Assembly: GCF_013201825.1 (NCBI RefSeq)
Contig: NZ_CP053836.1
Location: 372,001-436,000 of the forward strand
Direction of reading: 5' to 3'
Source of the DNA: Halarcobacter ebronensis
GTDB lineage: Bacteria; Campylobacterota; Campylobacteria; Campylobacterales; Arcobacteraceae
DNA: 64,000 nt
Every line of letters starts with the position of its first letter. Positions within the stretch are counted from its first letter, which is position 1. The notes under the pieces are model-generated. The model saw only the letters and a program-made list of their open reading frames with translations, did no database searches and had not been told where the DNA came from. Positions 24,930 through 32,201 of the stretch are shown in pieces. Both the position numbers and the translations under genes were made by a program.

Positions 24930-24968
24930 GTTAATTTTTTGTTAATTTTAAGTTTTCCTTCGATATGA
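24930..24968 (+). promoter_or_regulatory. ccoN promoter region with paired 9-mers
   Basis: A candidate -10 TATGAT lies at 24963-24968. Two perfect copies of GTTAATTTT start at 24930 and 24941, 11 bp apart, one helical turn, just upstream. A second close repeat, AGTGAC, occurs twice between the -10 and the ribosome site. The A/T periodicity could be the usual T-rich -35 region or a regulator site. Confidence 0.35.
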
Positions 24969-25024
24969 TTAGTTCGATAAGTGACAGTAAAGTGACTTGT
25001 AAAAAAATTAGTAGGAGGAGATTG

Positions 25025-26491
25025 ATGCAAGACGGTGCTAGAATCGAGTATGATTACTCAATTGCAAAGCTATTCACATTTGCAACAATTCTGTTTGGTA
25101 TCATTGGTTTAACGTTAGGTGTAGTCTTAGCGTTTCAACTAGCATTTCCTGAGTTAAATCATTTAGCTGGGGAGTATGGTACTTTCAGTAGACTAAGACC
25201 ATTACACACTAATGGTGTTGCGTTTGGTTTTACTCTAAGTGGTATTTTTGCTACATGGTATTATGTAGGTCAAAGGGTATTAAAAGTATCTCTAAAAGAG
25301 TCTCCATTTCTTTTAGCAATAGGTAAACTACATTTTATAGTTTATTTTATTACTATTCTTTTAGCTGTTGTAACGCTATTTGCTGGGATTACAACTTCAA
25401 AAGAGTATGCTGAATTAGAATGGCCTTTAGATATTCTTATTGTTGTTTTCTGGGTACTATGGGGTATTGGAATTTTCGGACTTATTGGGATTAGAAGAGA
25501 AAGAACACTTTATATCTCTATTTGGTATTATATTGCATGTTTCATAGCTGTTGCAATGTTACACCTATTCAATAGTTTAGAAGTTCCAACAATGTTAGTA
25601 TCTGGATATGGTTCATGGATTCACTCTGTATCAATGTATGCAGGGTCAAATGATGCATTAGTTCAATGGTGGTATGGGCACAATGCAGTTGCATTCGTAT
25701 TTACTACACCAATTATTGCTATGATTTATTATTTCTTACCAAAAGAGTCTGGACAAAATGTATACTCTTATAAGTTATCAATCTTAGCATTCTGGGGATT
25801 AATGTTTGTATATCTATGGGCAGGTGGACACCACTTAGTTTACTCTACTGTTCCAGACTGGATGCAAACTATGGGTTCTGTAATGTCAGTTGTACTTATT
25901 CTTCCATCTTGGGGTTCTGCAATTAATATGCTTTTAACAATGAAAGGTGAGTGGCAACAGTTACAAACTAATACACTTATTAAATTTATGGTATTAGCTT
26001 CAACTTTCTATATGTTATCAACAATTGAAGGACCAATTCAATCTATTAAATCTGTTAATGCAATTGCGCACTTTACAGATTGGATTCCAGGTCACGTACA
26101 TGATGGTGTATTAGGATGGGTTGTATTCATGATTATGGCTGCACTTTTCCATATGGCACCAAGAATGTATGGTAGAGAAATTTACTCTAAATCATTACTA
26201 GACACTCAATTCTGGTTACAAACAACTGGTATTGTTTTATATTTTACATCAATGTGGATTGCAGGTATTACACAAGGTATGATGTGGAGAGCATATGATG
26301 AATATGGTTCATTAGTTTACTCTTTCATTGATACTGTAACTGTATTACATCCATATTATACAATTAGAGCTGTTGGTGGGTTATTATACCTAATTGGATT
26401 CTTTATGTTTGCATACAATATGTACAAAACTGCAACTGCAGGTAGAGTGCTTGATAAAGAGCCAGTAAATGCTTCGCCAGTAGCAGCATAA
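25025..26491 (+). CDS. ccoN: cbb3-type cytochrome c oxidase subunit I
   Basis: Catalytic haem-copper subunit of the high-affinity terminal oxidase in the inner membrane. From ATG 25025 it has 488 residues with about 12 membrane helices and conserved histidines: His61 in PLHTNGVAFGF, the CuB/cross-link region WWYGHNAVAFVFTTP, AGGHHLVYSTVPDWMQ, and the haem ligands in DWIPGHVHDGVLG. The frame is open 20 codons further upstream, but a strong AGGAGGAG at 25013-25020 fixes the start at 25025. It is first of ccoNOQP, with a 14-bp gap to ccoO. Confidence 0.95.
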   Translation: MQDGARIEYDYSIAKLFTFATILFGIIGLTLGVVLAFQLAFPELNHLAGEYGTFSRLRPLHTNGVAFGFTLSGIFATWYYVGQRVLKVSLKESPFLLAIGKLHFIVYFITILLAVVTLFAGITTSKEYAELEWPLDILIVVFWVLWGIGIFGLIGIRRERTLYISIWYYIACFIAVAMLHLFNSLEVPTMLVSGYGSWIHSVSMYAGSNDALVQWWYGHNAVAFVFTTPIIAMIYYFLPKESGQNVYSYKLSILAFWGLMFVYLWAGGHHLVYSTVPDWMQTMGSVMSVVLILPSWGSAINMLLTMKGEWQQLQTNTLIKFMVLASTFYMLSTIEGPIQSIKSVNAIAHFTDWIPGHVHDGVLGWVVFMIMAALFHMAPRMYGREIYSKSLLDTQFWLQTTGIVLYFTSMWIAGITQGMMWRAYDEYGSLVYSFIDTVTVLHPYYTIRAVGGLLYLIGFFMFAYNMYKTATAGRVLDKEPVNASPVAA

Positions 26492-26505: not shown

Positions 26506-27189
26506 ATGTTTCATTGGTTTGAACAAAGACCGTTTTTCTTTTCGGTACTGTTATTTATTTTCGTTGCATTTGCAGGTATTGTGGAAGTAATTCCTGATTT
26601 TGCAAAACAATCAAGACCTACTGTTGGTACAAAACCATACTCTCTATTAGAGTTAGCAGGTAGACATGTTTATATTAAAGATTCTTGTAATGCTTGCCAC
26701 TCTCAGTTAATTAGACCATTTAAGTCTGAAACTGACAGATATGGTATGTATTCTTTATCTGGTGAGTATGCTTATGATAGACCATTCTTATGGGGATCAA
26801 AAAGAACTGGTCCAGACTTAATGAGAGTTGGTAACTACAGAACTACAGACTGGCATGAAAACCATATGTTAGAGCCTGCATCAGTTGTTCCAGGTTCAAT
26901 TATGCCAGCTTACCCACATATGTTTACAAATATGGCAGATTTAGATACTGCATATGCGGAAGCATTTACTGTTAAAACAGTATTTAATACACCATATGAT
27001 ATTGATTTAGATGGTGATGGTAAAGTTGATGTTGAGTTAGGTGATTATGAGACAGCTATTGCAAAAGCTAAAGAAGAAGCAAAAGCGATTGCTGCTGATA
27101 TGAAAAATCAAGCTGTAAAAGATGCCGTGGCTAACGGTCAAGTTCCTCAAATTGTTGCATTAATTGCATATTTAAATTCTTTAAAATAG
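26506..27189 (+). CDS. ccoO: cbb3-type cytochrome c oxidase subunit II (mono-haem)
   Basis: Membrane-anchored cytochrome c subunit passing electrons to CcoN. The 227 residues have an N-terminal anchor (about 10-28), a haem c site CNACH (Cys61, Cys64, His65), and the likely axial Met in GSIMPAYPHM. A strong AAGGAGG precedes the ATG. The C-terminal third carries a DLDGDGKVDVELGDYE stretch that looks like an acidic, EF-hand-like loop, then a charged helix; this insertion is not part of the minimal family. Confidence 0.95.
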   Translation: MFHWFEQRPFFFSVLLFIFVAFAGIVEVIPDFAKQSRPTVGTKPYSLLELAGRHVYIKDSCNACHSQLIRPFKSETDRYGMYSLSGEYAYDRPFLWGSKRTGPDLMRVGNYRTTDWHENHMLEPASVVPGSIMPAYPHMFTNMADLDTAYAEAFTVKTVFNTPYDIDLDGDGKVDVELGDYETAIAKAKEEAKAIAADMKNQAVKDAVANGQVPQIVALIAYLNSLK

Positions 27190-27197
27190 AGGTTAAA

Positions 27198-27422
27198 ATG
27201 GATCAAGAAGCAATACTTACATTTCAAGGCTATGCGAAGTTTTTTCTAGTCTTGGCTGTATTCATCATATTTTACTCTTATGCATATTCTATCTATAAAA
27301 GAGATAAAAAGGGTGAGAGAGATTTCGAAAAGTACTCAAAATTAGTACTTGATGATGGAGCTTCTATTGATCCTCTCGAAGATAGAAAAGAAAAAAAAGA
27401 GAATAAAGAGAAGGAGAAATAA
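27198..27422 (+). CDS. ccoQ: cbb3 oxidase small subunit CcoQ/FixQ type
   Basis: 74-residue protein with one membrane helix (about 11-30) and a very charged C-terminal tail rich in Lys and Glu. Its place between ccoO (8 bp) and ccoP (1 bp) and the small size identify the fourth subunit, thought to stabilise the complex. The tail is longer and more charged than in the minimal FixQ. Confidence 0.85.
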   Translation: MDQEAILTFQGYAKFFLVLAVFIIFYSYAYSIYKRDKKGERDFEKYSKLVLDDGASIDPLEDRKEKKENKEKEK

Positions 27423-27423
27423 G

Positions 27424-28314
27424 ATGAAGTCTATGGTTATAGGTGGAATTATTCTTATTATCGCTTTAATGGCAGGAACTTACTTCGTAGCAGGTGATGC
27501 TTTTGATAGCGATGATTATATTAATAGTTTAACTATGTTAGGTGCTGTAGCAATTATTACTATTACAGTATTTGTTGCACTTAAATATGTAAATCAAATT
27601 AAAAATGATACAGCTAGTGGTGAATTAGCTAATGAAAAATGGGATGGTATAGGTGAATATAAAAACCCTATTCCTACTGGTTGGGGATTAGCATTCGTTG
27701 GAACAATGGTTTGGTTATTATGGTACTGGACAGTTGGTTATCCAACAAATGGATTCTCACAAATTGGTCAATGGAATGAAGAAGTAAATGATTATAATGC
27801 AAAATTTGCTTCAAAATGGGAAAACCCATCTGAAGATACTTTAGTATCAATGGGTCAATCAGTATTTTTAGTACAATGTGCTCCTTGTCACGGTGTTGAT
27901 GCTGAAGGTATCAATGGTAAAGCACAAAACTTAACTCACAGAATTTCTAAAGAATCTGTAGAGTATACTATTAAAAATGGTTCAAATAACCTTCAAACTG
28001 CTTTCCCAGGTGGAATGCCTCCAATGATGTTAACTGAACAAGCTGATATTGATGCAGTTTCTTCTTATGTTGCTGGTGGTTTCAAGGGTGAACAACCTGC
28101 TGCATTTGGAGTTTGTGCTGGATGTCACGGAGCAGACGGTAAAGGTATCGCATTTGTTGGTCCAAATATTGCTGAGTATGATGATACTTTAGTAATGGCT
28201 GTATTAACAAATGGTAAAAAAGGACATATTGGTACAATGCCTAATTTCAAAGGTAGATTAAACCCTACACAAGAGAAAGCATTGGCTACTTATATTAGAA
28301 GTATAGGAGAGTAA
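27424..28314 (+). CDS. ccoP: cbb3-type cytochrome c oxidase di-haem subunit III
   Basis: Entry point for electrons. 296 residues from ATG 27424, chosen because AAGGAG lies just upstream; the longer open frame would begin inside ccoQ. Hydrophobic segments at about 4-24, 36-56 and 88-104, the conserved GIGEYKNPIPTGW block, then two haem c sites: CAPCH (Cys152-His156) and CAGCH (Cys231-His235). A one-base gap to the following DUF4006 gene implies tight coupling. Confidence 0.95.
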   Translation: MKSMVIGGIILIIALMAGTYFVAGDAFDSDDYINSLTMLGAVAIITITVFVALKYVNQIKNDTASGELANEKWDGIGEYKNPIPTGWGLAFVGTMVWLLWYWTVGYPTNGFSQIGQWNEEVNDYNAKFASKWENPSEDTLVSMGQSVFLVQCAPCHGVDAEGINGKAQNLTHRISKESVEYTIKNGSNNLQTAFPGGMPPMMLTEQADIDAVSSYVAGGFKGEQPAAFGVCAGCHGADGKGIAFVGPNIAEYDDTLVMAVLTNGKKGHIGTMPNFKGRLNPTQEKALATYIRSIGE

Positions 28315-28315
28315 G

Positions 28316-28555
28316 ATGGCTGATAATTCACAAATGAATGATAATGAAAGAGGATTGTTTTCTCTTGTTCATGGTATCACAGGAATGTTAATTGCAGTTG
28401 TTTTACTTTTAACAATTTTGGTTGTTTTAGGTTTTAATGCAATTATTGTACAACAAAAAGAAGCACAAAACTTCTATAAAATTAATCAAGACCTTAATGC
28501 TTTAAAAGCTAATAGTCCTGATAACCATAAATACTACGACCTCGTTGGTAAATAA
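28316..28555 (+). CDS. DUF4006-family small membrane protein
   Basis: 79 residues with a short polar N-terminus, one membrane helix (about 20-45) and a polar C-terminus. Its position 1 bp after ccoP is where Campylobacterota typically carry a DUF4006 gene. No function is established; context suggests an accessory or assembly factor of the cbb3 oxidase. Confidence 0.85.
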   Translation: MADNSQMNDNERGLFSLVHGITGMLIAVVLLLTILVVLGFNAIIVQQKEAQNFYKINQDLNALKANSPDNHKYYDLVGK

Positions 28556-28565
28556 GGAGTAAATG

Positions 28566-28658
28566 ATGGATAAAATTATTTGGCTTTTAATGGGAGTTAT
28601 GGCAGTGGTTTCTGTTTATTTAGGTTTTATTGATTCTACAAGAGTATTTGTTGGTTAA
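28566..28658 (+). CDS. Very small membrane protein in the cbb3 operon
   Basis: I found this 30-codon frame in the gap after the DUF4006 gene. It has AAGGAG at 28554-28559, two adjacent ATGs (28563 and 28566; the second is better spaced), and reads MDKIIWLLMGVMAVVSVYLG then FIDSTRVFVG, ending TAA at 28656-28658. Residues 4-21 form one membrane helix. The stop overlaps the next ATG by one base (TAATG). The good ribosome site and coupling to both neighbours argue that it is translated. Its size and place suggest a CcoM/CcoH-like accessory subunit, but I see no family signature. Confidence 0.6.
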   Translation: MDKIIWLLMGVMAVVSVYLGFIDSTRVFVG

Positions 28659-29284
28659 TGAAAAACTCTAATTCCTTCAAAGTAGCAGTGATTTCACTGC
28701 TACTTTTTTTATCTACAAATATCTATGCAAGCAAATTCGTTTTAAGTGATGATGGATTAATTGACCAAAGGGCAGTTGAAAAAATTGAACAAATTGGTTT
28801 AGAATCTCAAAATAAACTTGGTGTAAATATCTATATATATGCAAAAAAATCTTTAGGTCTTGATGAAAATATATCAACAAAAGATAAAATTAAATATATA
28901 AAAGAGTACGAATCAAATATTACAAATGGTTTAGCAAAACCATATGTTCTTCTAACAATGTATGTAGAAGATACTCATGTAAATTTAATTATGTCTTCAC
29001 AGTTAGAAACTGTGCTAAATAAAAATGAAGTTTTAAACGACTATGTTGTACCATTACTTGCTTCAAAAGATAAAAATTCACTATTTGCAAAAGCTAGTGC
29101 ATCAATGCTAAATGGTTATGCTGCAATTGCAGATATCATTGCTGAATCAAAAAATATTAAACTAGAAAGCAGTATTGGAAGTTCTGGAAAAGTTGCAGGA
29201 ACTATCTGGAAAGTATTTATGTATACATTGGTTATAGTAGGAATTCTATTATACACTTTTGCAATACTTAAAAGAAAAAAATAG
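28658..29284 (+). CDS. TPM-domain-like exported protein with C-terminal anchor
   Basis: 208 residues: signal peptide (cleavage after about residue 24, NIYA-S), a globular part that resembles TPM (TLP18.3/Psb32/MOLO-1) proteins in its LSDDGLIDQRAVEKIEQIG start and alternating helices and strands, and one membrane helix at about 181-203 followed by a KRKK tail. This puts the domain in the periplasm. The family match is my reading and not certain. Codons 8-16 coincide with a strong intrinsic terminator (28679-28710). Position suggests a role linked to the cbb3 oxidase or the following FixH-like protein. Confidence 0.6.
   Translation: MKNSNSFKVAVISLLLFLSTNIYASKFVLSDDGLIDQRAVEKIEQIGLESQNKLGVNIYIYAKKSLGLDENISTKDKIKYIKEYESNITNGLAKPYVLLTMYVEDTHVNLIMSSQLETVLNKNEVLNDYVVPLLASKDKNSLFAKASASMLNGYAAIADIIAESKNIKLESSIGSSGKVAGTIWKVFMYTLVIVGILLYTFAILKRKK
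28679..28710 (+). terminator. Intrinsic terminator inside the start of the TPM-like gene
   Basis: AAAGTAGCAGTG (28679-28690) and CACTGCTACTTT (28695-28706) form a perfect 12-bp stem with a 4-nt loop, continuing into a T-run that ends at 28710. It has every hallmark of a Rho-independent terminator, 21 nt after the stop of the small membrane protein. It also encodes part of the signal peptide of the next gene. It would end most ccoNOQP transcripts and leave reduced read-through into the downstream genes. Confidence 0.8.
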
Positions 29285-29296
29285 GATGTTTAAATT

Positions 29297-29857
29297 ATGA
29301 AAAGAAATTATTGGCCTCTATTTTTCATTGGGATATTTTCATTTGTTTTCTCAATGATTGTATGGACCATTCACTCTGCATTAAAGGTTCCTGTACATAA
29401 AGATGAAAGTTTTTTAAGTACTTATCATGATGTTGACAGAGACTATAATAAGATGGTTTCATCAAATATTGATTTTGAAAAAAAATATGATTTTAAAATA
29501 TATATAAATAATAAAGAGTTTGGATTAGATTTTAAAGATATGTTTTTAGCGCAAAGAGCTATTGAAGAGAAATCAAATCATAAAGATATATTTAGAACAA
29601 CACAAAATATTATAAAAGTAGTTGCATTAGATAAAAATAATGGTGAAGTTATAAAAAACCTTGATATTCAACTTCAAATAACTGTACCTACAAATGATAG
29701 TCATATTATTAATTTGACTTCAAAAGAGTTCTCTTTTGATAAAGGTGAGTATATAGCTAATTTTCCACTACCATACAAAGGAAATTGGAATATTACAGGT
29801 AAATTCTTAATTGACCAAAATATAGGTTATTTTTATATAAAATCAAATGCAATCTAG
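29297..29857 (+). CDS. FixH-like membrane protein
   Basis: 186 residues: one N-terminal membrane helix (about 7-27), then a periplasmic domain predicted to be beta-rich, ending with the pattern FPLPYKGNWNITGKFLID that resembles the end of FixH/CcoH proteins (Gly-x-Trp). FixH/CcoH acts in assembly of cbb3 oxidase, and the gene lies in that cluster. Similarity is weak by eye, so the call rests on architecture plus context. It overlaps the next gene by 11 nt. Confidence 0.6.
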   Translation: MKRNYWPLFFIGIFSFVFSMIVWTIHSALKVPVHKDESFLSTYHDVDRDYNKMVSSNIDFEKKYDFKIYINNKEFGLDFKDMFLAQRAIEEKSNHKDIFRTTQNIIKVVALDKNNGEVIKNLDIQLQITVPTNDSHIINLTSKEFSFDKGEYIANFPLPYKGNWNITGKFLIDQNIGYFYIKSNAI

Positions 29858-32201
29858 AAAAAAACTTTTAGTTTTTCCAACTTCTAGATCTATAAGGGAG
29901 TATGTAAACTCTAAAAAAGAGTTTAATACTCTTCTCCCTTCCATAATTACAATTGATGAGTTTTTTAAAAAATCACTACTTTTTAATAATAGAAAATATT
30001 TGGATGAGGATGAAAGAGTTCTTTATTTAAAAGAGGCAGTAAAAAATGTTAATTTAGCTGCATTGGGAATAAACTCATCTTTTAACCATTTTATTAAACA
30101 AAGTGATTATATATATAGATTTTTTATTGAGTTAGCAAGTGAAAATGTTGATATAAATTCTATTGAGTCTGTTGATACTTACGATTTTTATAGTGAACAT
30201 TTAAATATATTAAAAGAGATACAAGCTAACTACTTAAAAATCTTAGATGAAAAGAGTTTTGTTGATAGGGTTAACTTTTCTAAATTCTACTCAATAAATA
30301 TAGATTTTATAAAAAGATATGAAACAATAGAATTATATTTTGAAGGTTATTTTACAAATTTTGAATTTGAACTAATAAAAGAGATATCAAAACTATCAAA
30401 ACTAATAATTGAGTTTTATTATTATGAATATAATGAAAAATCAATTGAAAAGTTTATAAATATAGGGATTGAGTTAGAAGTAGGTTATAGATACAAAATT
30501 GATTTTTCAAATAGAAAAGTTATTGAAAAAGAGAAAATAGAACAAAATACCAAAACTATTAATATTAAAGGTTTTAGCTCACAAATAAACCAAATTGCAT
30601 TTATAAAGAAATCAATTGTTGATTTGGTTAATAATGGCGTAGAACCTTCTAAAATAGCTTTAATACTTCCAAATGAATCATTTGCATCAACAATAAAGAT
30701 TTTTGACAATGAGGGCTATTTTAATTACGCTATGGGCTTAGATATCTATACTAGTAATCTTTTTAGAATTATTGATGGAATATATGCCTATATGAATGAA
30801 GATGAAATAAAAAATATAAAGAATCTTGAGTTTATTGAGTGTGATATAACATTTATAGATAATTTATTTAAAAAAAATTGGAACAATGCAATAAGTGAAC
30901 ATCTTTTTGAAGATATGATTGGTTATTTTATTACAAAGGAGAGTAATAAAGAGCTTCTAGAAAAGTTTAAAGAGTTAGTCTATAAACTATATAAGATTAT
31001 CTTTTCTTTTGGTGAAAAAATACGGTTAAAAGACGCATATAAAATTTTTTATCAGAAAGTATCACAACTTACTTTAGATGATATAAACTCAGGAAAAATA
31101 ACAGTAATGGGTCTTTTAGAGAGTAGAAGATTAGAGTTTGATGCTATTATAATATGTGATTTTAATGAGAGTCTGATACCAAAGAGAAGTAAAAAAGATA
31201 AGTTTTTATCAACAAGGGTAAAAAACAGTGCAAAATTACCAACCTCTTTTGATAGGGAAAATTTACAAAAATATTATTACAAAAGAGTTGTTGACAGTAC
31301 TAAAACAATAATAATCTCCTATGTAAAAAATGATAATGAACAAATAAGTAGATTTGCAAATGATCTTTTTAAAAATAGTATTGAGAGTAAAGTTTTTGAC
31401 AATAACTATAAACATATTTTATATAAAAATAAAAGCCTAACTCACTTTGATAAAGAGATTATATTAGATATTGATTTGTCAAAAATTACTTGGAGTGCAA
31501 GCTCATTAAAAGAGTTCTTAGAGTGCAAGAGAAAATATTATCTAAATCATATATTAAAAATAAAAGAGCATGATATCTCTTTAAAACCAAAAGGGTATGA
31601 ACTTGGAAGTATAGTTCATAGTATACTTGAAGAGTTTTATAAACAAAAAGAGTACAACACTAAAAAGGTTGCAGAACTGTTTGATAAATATAGAAGTACA
31701 AATAGTTTTTTAAATCTAGATTTAGAACTTTGGAAGAAAAGAGTAGAAGAGTTTATAGTTCTTGATTTAAAGAGAGTAAAAGAGAATAATATAACAATAA
31801 TAAAACTTGAAAAACCATTTTTGATTGAGTTTAATAATATTAAACTAAGAGGAACAATTGATAGAGTTGAAAAGCAAGCTGGGAATAGTTTTAATGTAAT
31901 TGATTATAAAACAAGCAGTACTTTAAAAGTAGATACTCTTAAGAATTTTGATAAATCTATAGACTTCCAGCTAGAGTTTTATTATTTAGCTTTAAATGAA
32001 TTATATAAAAATGACAACATAAGATGTTTTTATTATGATTTATATGAACTTGAACTAAAAGAAGAGATTGCAATAGATGAAAAAATAAAAAGATTAGAAG
32101 AGATTCTTTTAAACTTATCAACTACAAGTGTAAACTTTGAAAAATGTGAGAGCTTATCTTCTTGTCAGTTTTGCATCTATAAAGATTTATGTAATAGATA
32201 A
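29847..32201 (+). CDS. addB: AddB-like helicase-nuclease subunit with PD-(D/E)XK domain
   Basis: 784 residues. The C-terminal 230 hold a RecB-type nuclease: SASSLKEFLECKRKYYL, GSIVHSILEEFY, GTIDRVEK and VIDYKTS (catalytic Asp and Lys), and a final CQFCIYKDLC cysteine group which, with the earlier ECKRK cysteine, would hold a [4Fe-4S] cluster as in AddB. The N-terminal part is a degenerate helicase-like region without a clear Walker A. Campylobacterota AddB proteins look like this. The start overlaps the FixH-like gene by 11 nt. The partner addA is not adjacent. Confidence 0.78.
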   Translation: MQSRKKLLVFPTSRSIREYVNSKKEFNTLLPSIITIDEFFKKSLLFNNRKYLDEDERVLYLKEAVKNVNLAALGINSSFNHFIKQSDYIYRFFIELASENVDINSIESVDTYDFYSEHLNILKEIQANYLKILDEKSFVDRVNFSKFYSINIDFIKRYETIELYFEGYFTNFEFELIKEISKLSKLIIEFYYYEYNEKSIEKFINIGIELEVGYRYKIDFSNRKVIEKEKIEQNTKTINIKGFSSQINQIAFIKKSIVDLVNNGVEPSKIALILPNESFASTIKIFDNEGYFNYAMGLDIYTSNLFRIIDGIYAYMNEDEIKNIKNLEFIECDITFIDNLFKKNWNNAISEHLFEDMIGYFITKESNKELLEKFKELVYKLYKIIFSFGEKIRLKDAYKIFYQKVSQLTLDDINSGKITVMGLLESRRLEFDAIIICDFNESLIPKRSKKDKFLSTRVKNSAKLPTSFDRENLQKYYYKRVVDSTKTIIISYVKNDNEQISRFANDLFKNSIESKVFDNNYKHILYKNKSLTHFDKEIILDIDLSKITWSASSLKEFLECKRKYYLNHILKIKEHDISLKPKGYELGSIVHSILEEFYKQKEYNTKKVAELFDKYRSTNSFLNLDLELWKKRVEEFIVLDLKRVKENNITIIKLEKPFLIEFNNIKLRGTIDRVEKQAGNSFNVIDYKTSSTLKVDTLKNFDKSIDFQLEFYYLALNELYKNDNIRCFYYDLYELELKEEIAIDEKIKRLEEILLNLSTTSVNFEKCESLSSCQFCIYKDLCNR

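Follow-up and report, generated by a model that had tools for sequence, protein, structure and literature searches.

A conserved terminator-type hairpin in the signal-peptide codons of ccoZ, behind the cbb3 oxidase genes of Campylobacterales

Genes are usually assumed to exclude transcription terminators from their coding sequence. In Clostridia the proportions between the genes of an operon are set by leaky terminators inside it (PMC9045158), and a terminator can be functional even when it lies within 100 bp of the start of a gene (PMC4824070). In E. coli constructs carrying the terminator tR2, termination efficiency lies between 0.12 and 0.8 when the terminator stands 17-18 nt behind a stop codon, where trailing ribosomes partly repress it, and reaches its maximum beyond about 30 nt from the stop codon (PMC4824070). 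The genes considered here are known from Campylobacter jejuni, for which PMC8267372 gives the order ccoNOQP-ccoX-ccoY-ccoZ-ccoH-cj1482c, describes ccoX and ccoH as essential and ccoY and ccoZ as important for oxidase activity, and reports that CcoZ co-migrates with a putative Qcr-oxidase complex.

The present locus, in which a terminator-type hairpin lies in the first codons of ccoZ, has the C. jejuni genes in the C. jejuni order, from ccoNOQP through ccoX, ccoY and ccoZ to ccoH, although the available part of that paper describes no terminator in ccoZ (PMC8267372). It resembles the ABC-transporter operons of Clostridia in that a seemingly leaky hairpin stands behind a highly expressed 5' gene and the downstream genes would be reached by read-through only; the terminators of cellulolytic Clostridia are intergenic, however, whereas that of ccoZ lies in a coding start and constrains amino acids (PMC9045158). 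With the tR2 constructs, and with the pyrBI attenuator cited alongside them, it shares a stop-to-stem distance of about 20 nt, at which coupled ribosomes modulate termination, but those systems are engineered or depend on a leader peptide, while the ccoZ element is natural, lies in the middle of a gene run and is followed by a gene that starts at the stop codon itself (PMC4824070). Term-seq in E. coli likewise found RNA 3' ends within genes, both ORF-internal and in 5' UTRs, but the available part of that study describes no covarying coding-embedded terminator conserved across families (PMC7815308). Our literature search, which left most subscription journals outside its reach, found no description of a ccoZ-embedded terminator. 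The leaky intra-operonic terminator is thus already known as a type; what is new is one that is embedded in signal-peptide codons, constrains them and is conserved across an order.

We analysed a stretch of 64,000 nucleotides (the window) from Halarcobacter ebronensis, a member of the Arcobacteraceae with a genome of 3.17 Mb on a single contig. The features of the gene run are as follows.

24965-26491, forward strand: ccoN (cbb3 oxidase subunit I), an ORF matching Pfam COX1 (E 5e-107)
26506-27189, forward strand: ccoO, matching Pfam FixO (E 6e-82)
27198-27422, forward strand: ccoQ, matching Pfam FixQ (E 1e-8)
27424-28314, forward strand: ccoP, matching Pfam FixP_N and Cytochrome_CBB3; start inferred from sequence
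28316-28555, forward strand: ccoX (DUF4006), matching Pfam DUF4006 (E 2e-26); named after C. jejuni cj1486c as in PMC8267372
28563-28658, forward strand: ccoY, an ORF of 31 codons with one transmembrane helix; Cj1485 homologue by order, size and ending
28658-28729, forward strand: ccoZ signal-peptide codons holding the putative terminator; cleavage between NIYA and SKF placed by eye
28658-29284, forward strand: ccoZ, TPM-type, homologue of C. jejuni Cj1484; TPM assignment from PMC8267372
28679-28706, forward strand: putative terminator hairpin, arms 28679-28690 and 28695-28706, loop 28691-28694; conserved and covarying
28704-28710, forward strand: T-run (U-tract) of the putative terminator, encoded by signal-peptide Leu-Phe-Leu codons
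29297-29857, forward strand: ccoH (FixH/YtkA-like), with weak Pfam FixH/YtkA matches and the gene order of cj1483c
29847-32201, forward strand: addB-like nuclease gene, last of the run, matching Pfam PDDEXK_1 (E 4e-35)

The ccoZ protein has no Pfam match of its own and found none in a profile search of PDB sequences, and it is conserved in 133 of the 150 genomes. Its N-terminus, MKNSNSFKVAVISLLLFLSTNIYA followed by SKF, is a typical signal peptide. The ATG of ccoZ (28658) overlaps the TAA of ccoY on the same strand (TAATG), ccoY being close in size to its counterpart Cj1485 (33 residues), and no other ccoZ start is possible: the frame holds no in-frame start 3' of the stem, and a start there, which would also cost the signal peptide, is ruled out. 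The hairpin consists of the arms AAAGTAGCAGTG (28679-28690) and CACTGCTACTTT (28695-28706) around the loop ATTT (28691-28694), and its stem begins at +21 from the ATG, inside the signal peptide. All 12 pairs, 5 of them G-C, are free of mismatches and of G-T pairs, the stem with its loop of 4 comes to -16.8 kcal/mol, and 7 T follow directly at 28704-28710, so that a stable stem with a short loop and a U-tract directly behind it, the marks of an intrinsic terminator, are all present between 28679 and 28710. The initial annotation had described a perfect 12-bp stem with a 4-nt loop and a T-run ending at 28710, which is exact, and had read the same bases as signal-peptide codons of the gene starting at 28658, which agrees with a real reading frame and a conserved protein; its naming of the downstream genes as TPM-like, FixH-like and AddB fits the families, with a small correction to ccoZ (TPM family), ccoH and addB-like.

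When folded as a whole, positions 28640-28725 reach -22.5 kcal/mol (z = -4.2), a stability equalled by none of 200 shuffles. Weak terminator-like matches are common: 19 kb of sequence holds 6, where 5.9 would be expected. Hairpins with a T-tail that lie inside an ORF and reach -12 kcal/mol number only 5 in 864 kb of the host genome (813 ORFs), and that of ccoZ is the only one of them that has 7 T and no G-U pairs. Rfam returned no match for the hairpin to any known RNA family, and membership of such a family is ruled out on that result.

To see how the element is distributed, we took homologous ccoZ genes from the 150 genomes and compared the gene starts, calling a terminator where a hairpin with a T-rich tail had a dG of -8 or below, and a locus compact where ccoP ended less than 410 nt upstream of ccoZ. 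Of 69 compact loci in Arcobacteraceae, in which ccoZ lies directly behind ccoNOQP-ccoX-ccoY, 64 have a terminator of this definition where ccoZ begins, and 61 of these terminators reach -13 or below, whereas among 313 control starts in the same loci (ccoP, ccoX, ccoH and addB) only 6 reach -8 and 1 reaches -13. A T-rich tail follows the Arcobacteraceae hairpins nearly always, and three further loci cut by a contig end also carry the terminator at the ccoZ start. Five compact loci are without a strong stem. The stem is lost where the gene context is lost: the ccoZ-start terminator is found in 0 of 8 loci with ccoZ further downstream and in 0 of 5 without ccoP upstream (one of these, L074, ends at a contig end). 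Between ccoY and ccoZ, the terminator is conserved as a unit. As a separate observation, a metagenome bin titled Desulfosporosinus sp. (L241, DYPS01000012.1) has an Arcobacteraceae ccoZ, and the record looks mislabelled.

The pairing has been kept while its letters changed. Since a MAFFT alignment of whole hairpins put unequal loops out of register, we anchored the arms by codon and re-aligned them. Across 27 distinct stems, 98.5% of the cells are then standard pairs (the sequences are related, and the statistics ignore kinship), compared with 36-71% in every one of the slid controls, and changes on both sides occur in 8 of the 12 pairs, amounting to 36 cells where shuffling gives 12.0 (0 of 500 shuffles; kinship again ignored). 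The compensatory changes that the initial annotation had named as a test, which keep the stem while altering codons, are thus strongly in evidence. Between L001 (GTAGCAGTG/CACTGCTAC) and L017 (ATAGGAGTG/CACTCCTAT), for instance, Ile has replaced Val and Gly has replaced Ala in the 5' arm, matched in the 3' arm by Phe in place of Leu and by a synonymous Leu codon, while L058 (AAGAAGAGAGTT/AACTCTCTTCTT) and L087 (AGAGGGTGGC/GCCACTCT) build their stems in another register or of unrelated bases. Synonymous recoding of the host ccoZ peptide reached the observed hairpin in 0 of 1000 trials, as it did in each of 12 Arcobacteraceae representatives with strong stems; the figure is mostly 0-8 of 1000 in other families and 47 of 1000 in L088, a divergent Arcobacteraceae locus. 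On these comparisons of sequence, the element at the ccoZ start is of terminator type and under selection.

Eight Arcobacteraceae loci, in which ccoZ starts 100-375 nt behind ccoY, hold a terminator in the spacer between the two genes instead, as in L069 (GGAGATAC GAAA GTATCTCC TTTTTTTT), and these are of textbook form with T-runs. The embedded stems lie a median of 21 nt behind the ccoY stop (IQR 20-21, n = 62) and the free ones a median of 23 nt (18-31, n = 8); the fixed distance is that to the ccoY stop, not that to the ccoZ start. The placement in the spacer, together with this near-constant distance, argues that the oxidase unit ends with this element and that ccoZ overlaps it, and, because the eight spaced loci hold it outside ccoZ, it is kept with no need of ccoZ translation. 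A Shine-Dalgarno-like 4-mer precedes embedded ccoZ starts in only 7 of 67 loci, whereas ccoX has one in all 67 and ccoY in 60 of 65, so that embedded ccoZ is probably translated by ribosomes arriving from ccoY. The spaced copies mostly have a Shine-Dalgarno sequence behind the terminator, and some have TATAAT boxes there; in L073, L076 and L081 the start picked by our script hides the Shine-Dalgarno sequence.

Across the order, start-embedded ccoZ terminators occur in 15 of the 20 Campylobacterales families sampled. Outside Arcobacteraceae they are found in 55 of 90 compact loci, and a hairpin of -8 or below in 85 of 103 loci against 18 of 211 control starts. Judged from sequence, a stop signal is kept by matched mutations across much of Campylobacterales. 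Its exact form is not universal, since the hairpin is absent from L150-L159 (a genus taken as the H. pylori group) and from L184-L188 (one Campylobacteraceae genus) and stands without a direct U-tract in L093, L105, L117, L118, L128, L135, L145 and L181, which belong to several families. Campylobacteraceae loci L173-L179 have stems of the AAGATGGC..GCCATCTT type, and the C. jejuni deletion primers printed in PMC8267372 cover such a hairpin from its first arm through its loop, their letters matching the beginning of an L178-like hairpin, with 8 T as in L178. A pattern search for the C. jejuni form with 7 T gave no match, the primer having 8, so the link to C. jejuni comes from a comparison of letters by eye. 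RNA-seq lists cj1485c but not cj1484c among down-regulated C. jejuni genes, which is too thin to place a boundary (PMC7099621). In L084 and L086, from one family, the ccoZ start codon lies within the hairpin (CTTCTGCGG ATG ... CCGCAGAAG), which would hide it, possibly a translational variant.

The hairpin probably serves the ccoNOQPXY transcript as a leaky intrinsic terminator at its 3' end, overlapped by ccoZ and for that reason written in ccoZ signal-peptide codons. The comparative sequence evidence supports this terminator reading well, and from it we infer that termination takes place, how strong it is, what the ribosome contributes and what purpose it serves. The U-tract is supplied by Leu and Phe codons of the h-region and the arms by Lys-Val-Ala-Val and Ser-Leu-Leu-Leu codons. 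Most polymerases would stop near 28710 and leave an abundant oxidase mRNA with a stable 3' hairpin, and the remaining ones would read through into ccoZ-ccoH-addB at a lower level. A ribosome ending ccoY could re-initiate at the ccoZ ATG and enter the 5' arm before the hairpin closes, probably raising read-through, and the hairpin would close where re-initiation is not immediate; transcription of ccoZ-ccoH-addB would then depend in part on ccoZ translation. One could also speculate that the missing Shine-Dalgarno sequence limits initiation on terminated, stop-less messages. In the simplest function, assembly factors and nuclease would be made at a constant level below that of the structural subunits, probably so that oxidase is abundant and the helper proteins from the genes behind it are fewer. 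Because ccoH is essential for oxidase activity in C. jejuni (PMC8267372), a very strong terminator would come at a cost.

The initial annotation had suggested a possible attenuation switch, in which translation of the signal peptide, coupled to the 30-residue protein through TAATG, decides between stop and read-through. In a regulated form of such a switch, ccoZ translation or re-initiation from ccoY to ccoZ would be sensed, and stress or assembly state would alter read-through and with it the output of ccoZ-ccoH-addB. The coupling part of this proposal fits the sequence, given the overlap of stop and start, the lack of a Shine-Dalgarno sequence at embedded ccoZ and a stem about 20 nt behind the stop, in the zone where ribosome position governs termination (PMC4824070). 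The regulated part is unlikely: the single fold made gave no antiterminator, and at ccoY-ccoZ we found no leader peptide with biased composition, no exclusive antiterminator fold, no known ligand motif or site and no Rfam match, ccoY being a conserved membrane protein. Moreover, where the spaced loci hold the terminator outside any gene, ccoZ translation cannot gate it. A leaky terminator of fixed ratio, tied to the ccoY stop, is favoured by these data and needs fewer parts to explain them.

It is rather improbable that the hairpin acts without any termination, solely shielding the 3' end that cleavage or an exonuclease leaves on the ccoNOQPXY mRNA. Its retention without a direct U-tract in many loci outside Arcobacteraceae speaks for such a part and suggests that termination may not be the sole role, but the nearly constant T-rich tail in Arcobacteraceae and the textbook form of the spaced versions speak against it as the whole explanation. 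Stabilization is compatible with termination, both roles can coexist, and a part in mRNA 3'-end stability may be shared among families. Much less credible is a hairpin that slows ccoZ initiation or early elongation, or pauses the ribosome for signal-peptide targeting; the stem does begin just past an initiating ribosome, but it is from the ccoY stop that the distance is constant, and where ccoZ does not adjoin ccoY the signal peptide persists and the hairpin does not (0 of 13), a loss that rules out the targeting pause. That chance alone made the stem from a Leu- and Phe-rich signal peptide in an AT-rich genome is next to inconceivable, for although such codons give a U-tract for free and weak matches abound, covariation, the synonymous null, genome background and context dependence all contradict it, refuting a chance match and bearing out the initial view that the stem is hard to ascribe to chance.

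If the element is a leaky terminator, it predicts transcript levels of the cbb3-oxidase assembly genes in Campylobacter and Arcobacter, and deletion or marker constructs through ccoZ may change the 3' end of the oxidase operon. Terminator and signal peptide share bases over evolution as wide as the order, to the point that, between L001 and L017, an Ala to Gly change is compensated by a synonymous change in the paired codon, and the embedded, spaced and lost loci form a clean natural system for the sharing of RNA between ribosome and terminator.

Elsewhere in the host genome, a scan of 2.06 Mb (1959 ORFs) found a strong hairpin close to the start of 23 ORFs, and conserved terminators of the same kind, as recognised from sequence, are present in other operons. 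A di-haem oxidoreductase gene (PF06537) behind an imelysin-like gene (G000:C1:788904-790301, strand -; L205:8904-10301) has the terminator gccttatagcaaCACttgctatagggcTTTTTGCC within the codons of its signal peptide; 20 of 25 relatives (L243-L267) retain a terminator there in other letters, and 0-1 of 1000 synonymous recodings reach it. An ABC permease gene (PF00528; G000:C1:2634253-2635215, strand -; L324:14253-15215) has agttagggcaTCTTATtgctctaactTTTTACCT in its first codons, kept (dG of -8 or below) in 16 of 20 relatives (L330-L349), with a synonymous null of 0-3 of 1000; this case is like the leaky ABC-operon terminators of Clostridia, but inside the gene (PMC9045158). Together with ccoZ, these two could tentatively be seen as a Campylobacterales operon device, in which a conserved terminator occupying the initial codons of a downstream gene for a secreted or membrane protein would be passed only by polymerases with a re-initiating ribosome, forcing pairs of signal-peptide residues to coevolve. 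An esterase gene (G000:C1:2130087-2131700, strand -; L299) also shows a signal-peptide-embedded hairpin with a T-rich tail, and in the only relative found (L329) the stem at that position is a different one. A CbiM-family gene (G000:C1:2519164-2519763, strand -; L318:19164-19763) has a strong hairpin with a T-run about 100 nt into the ORF.
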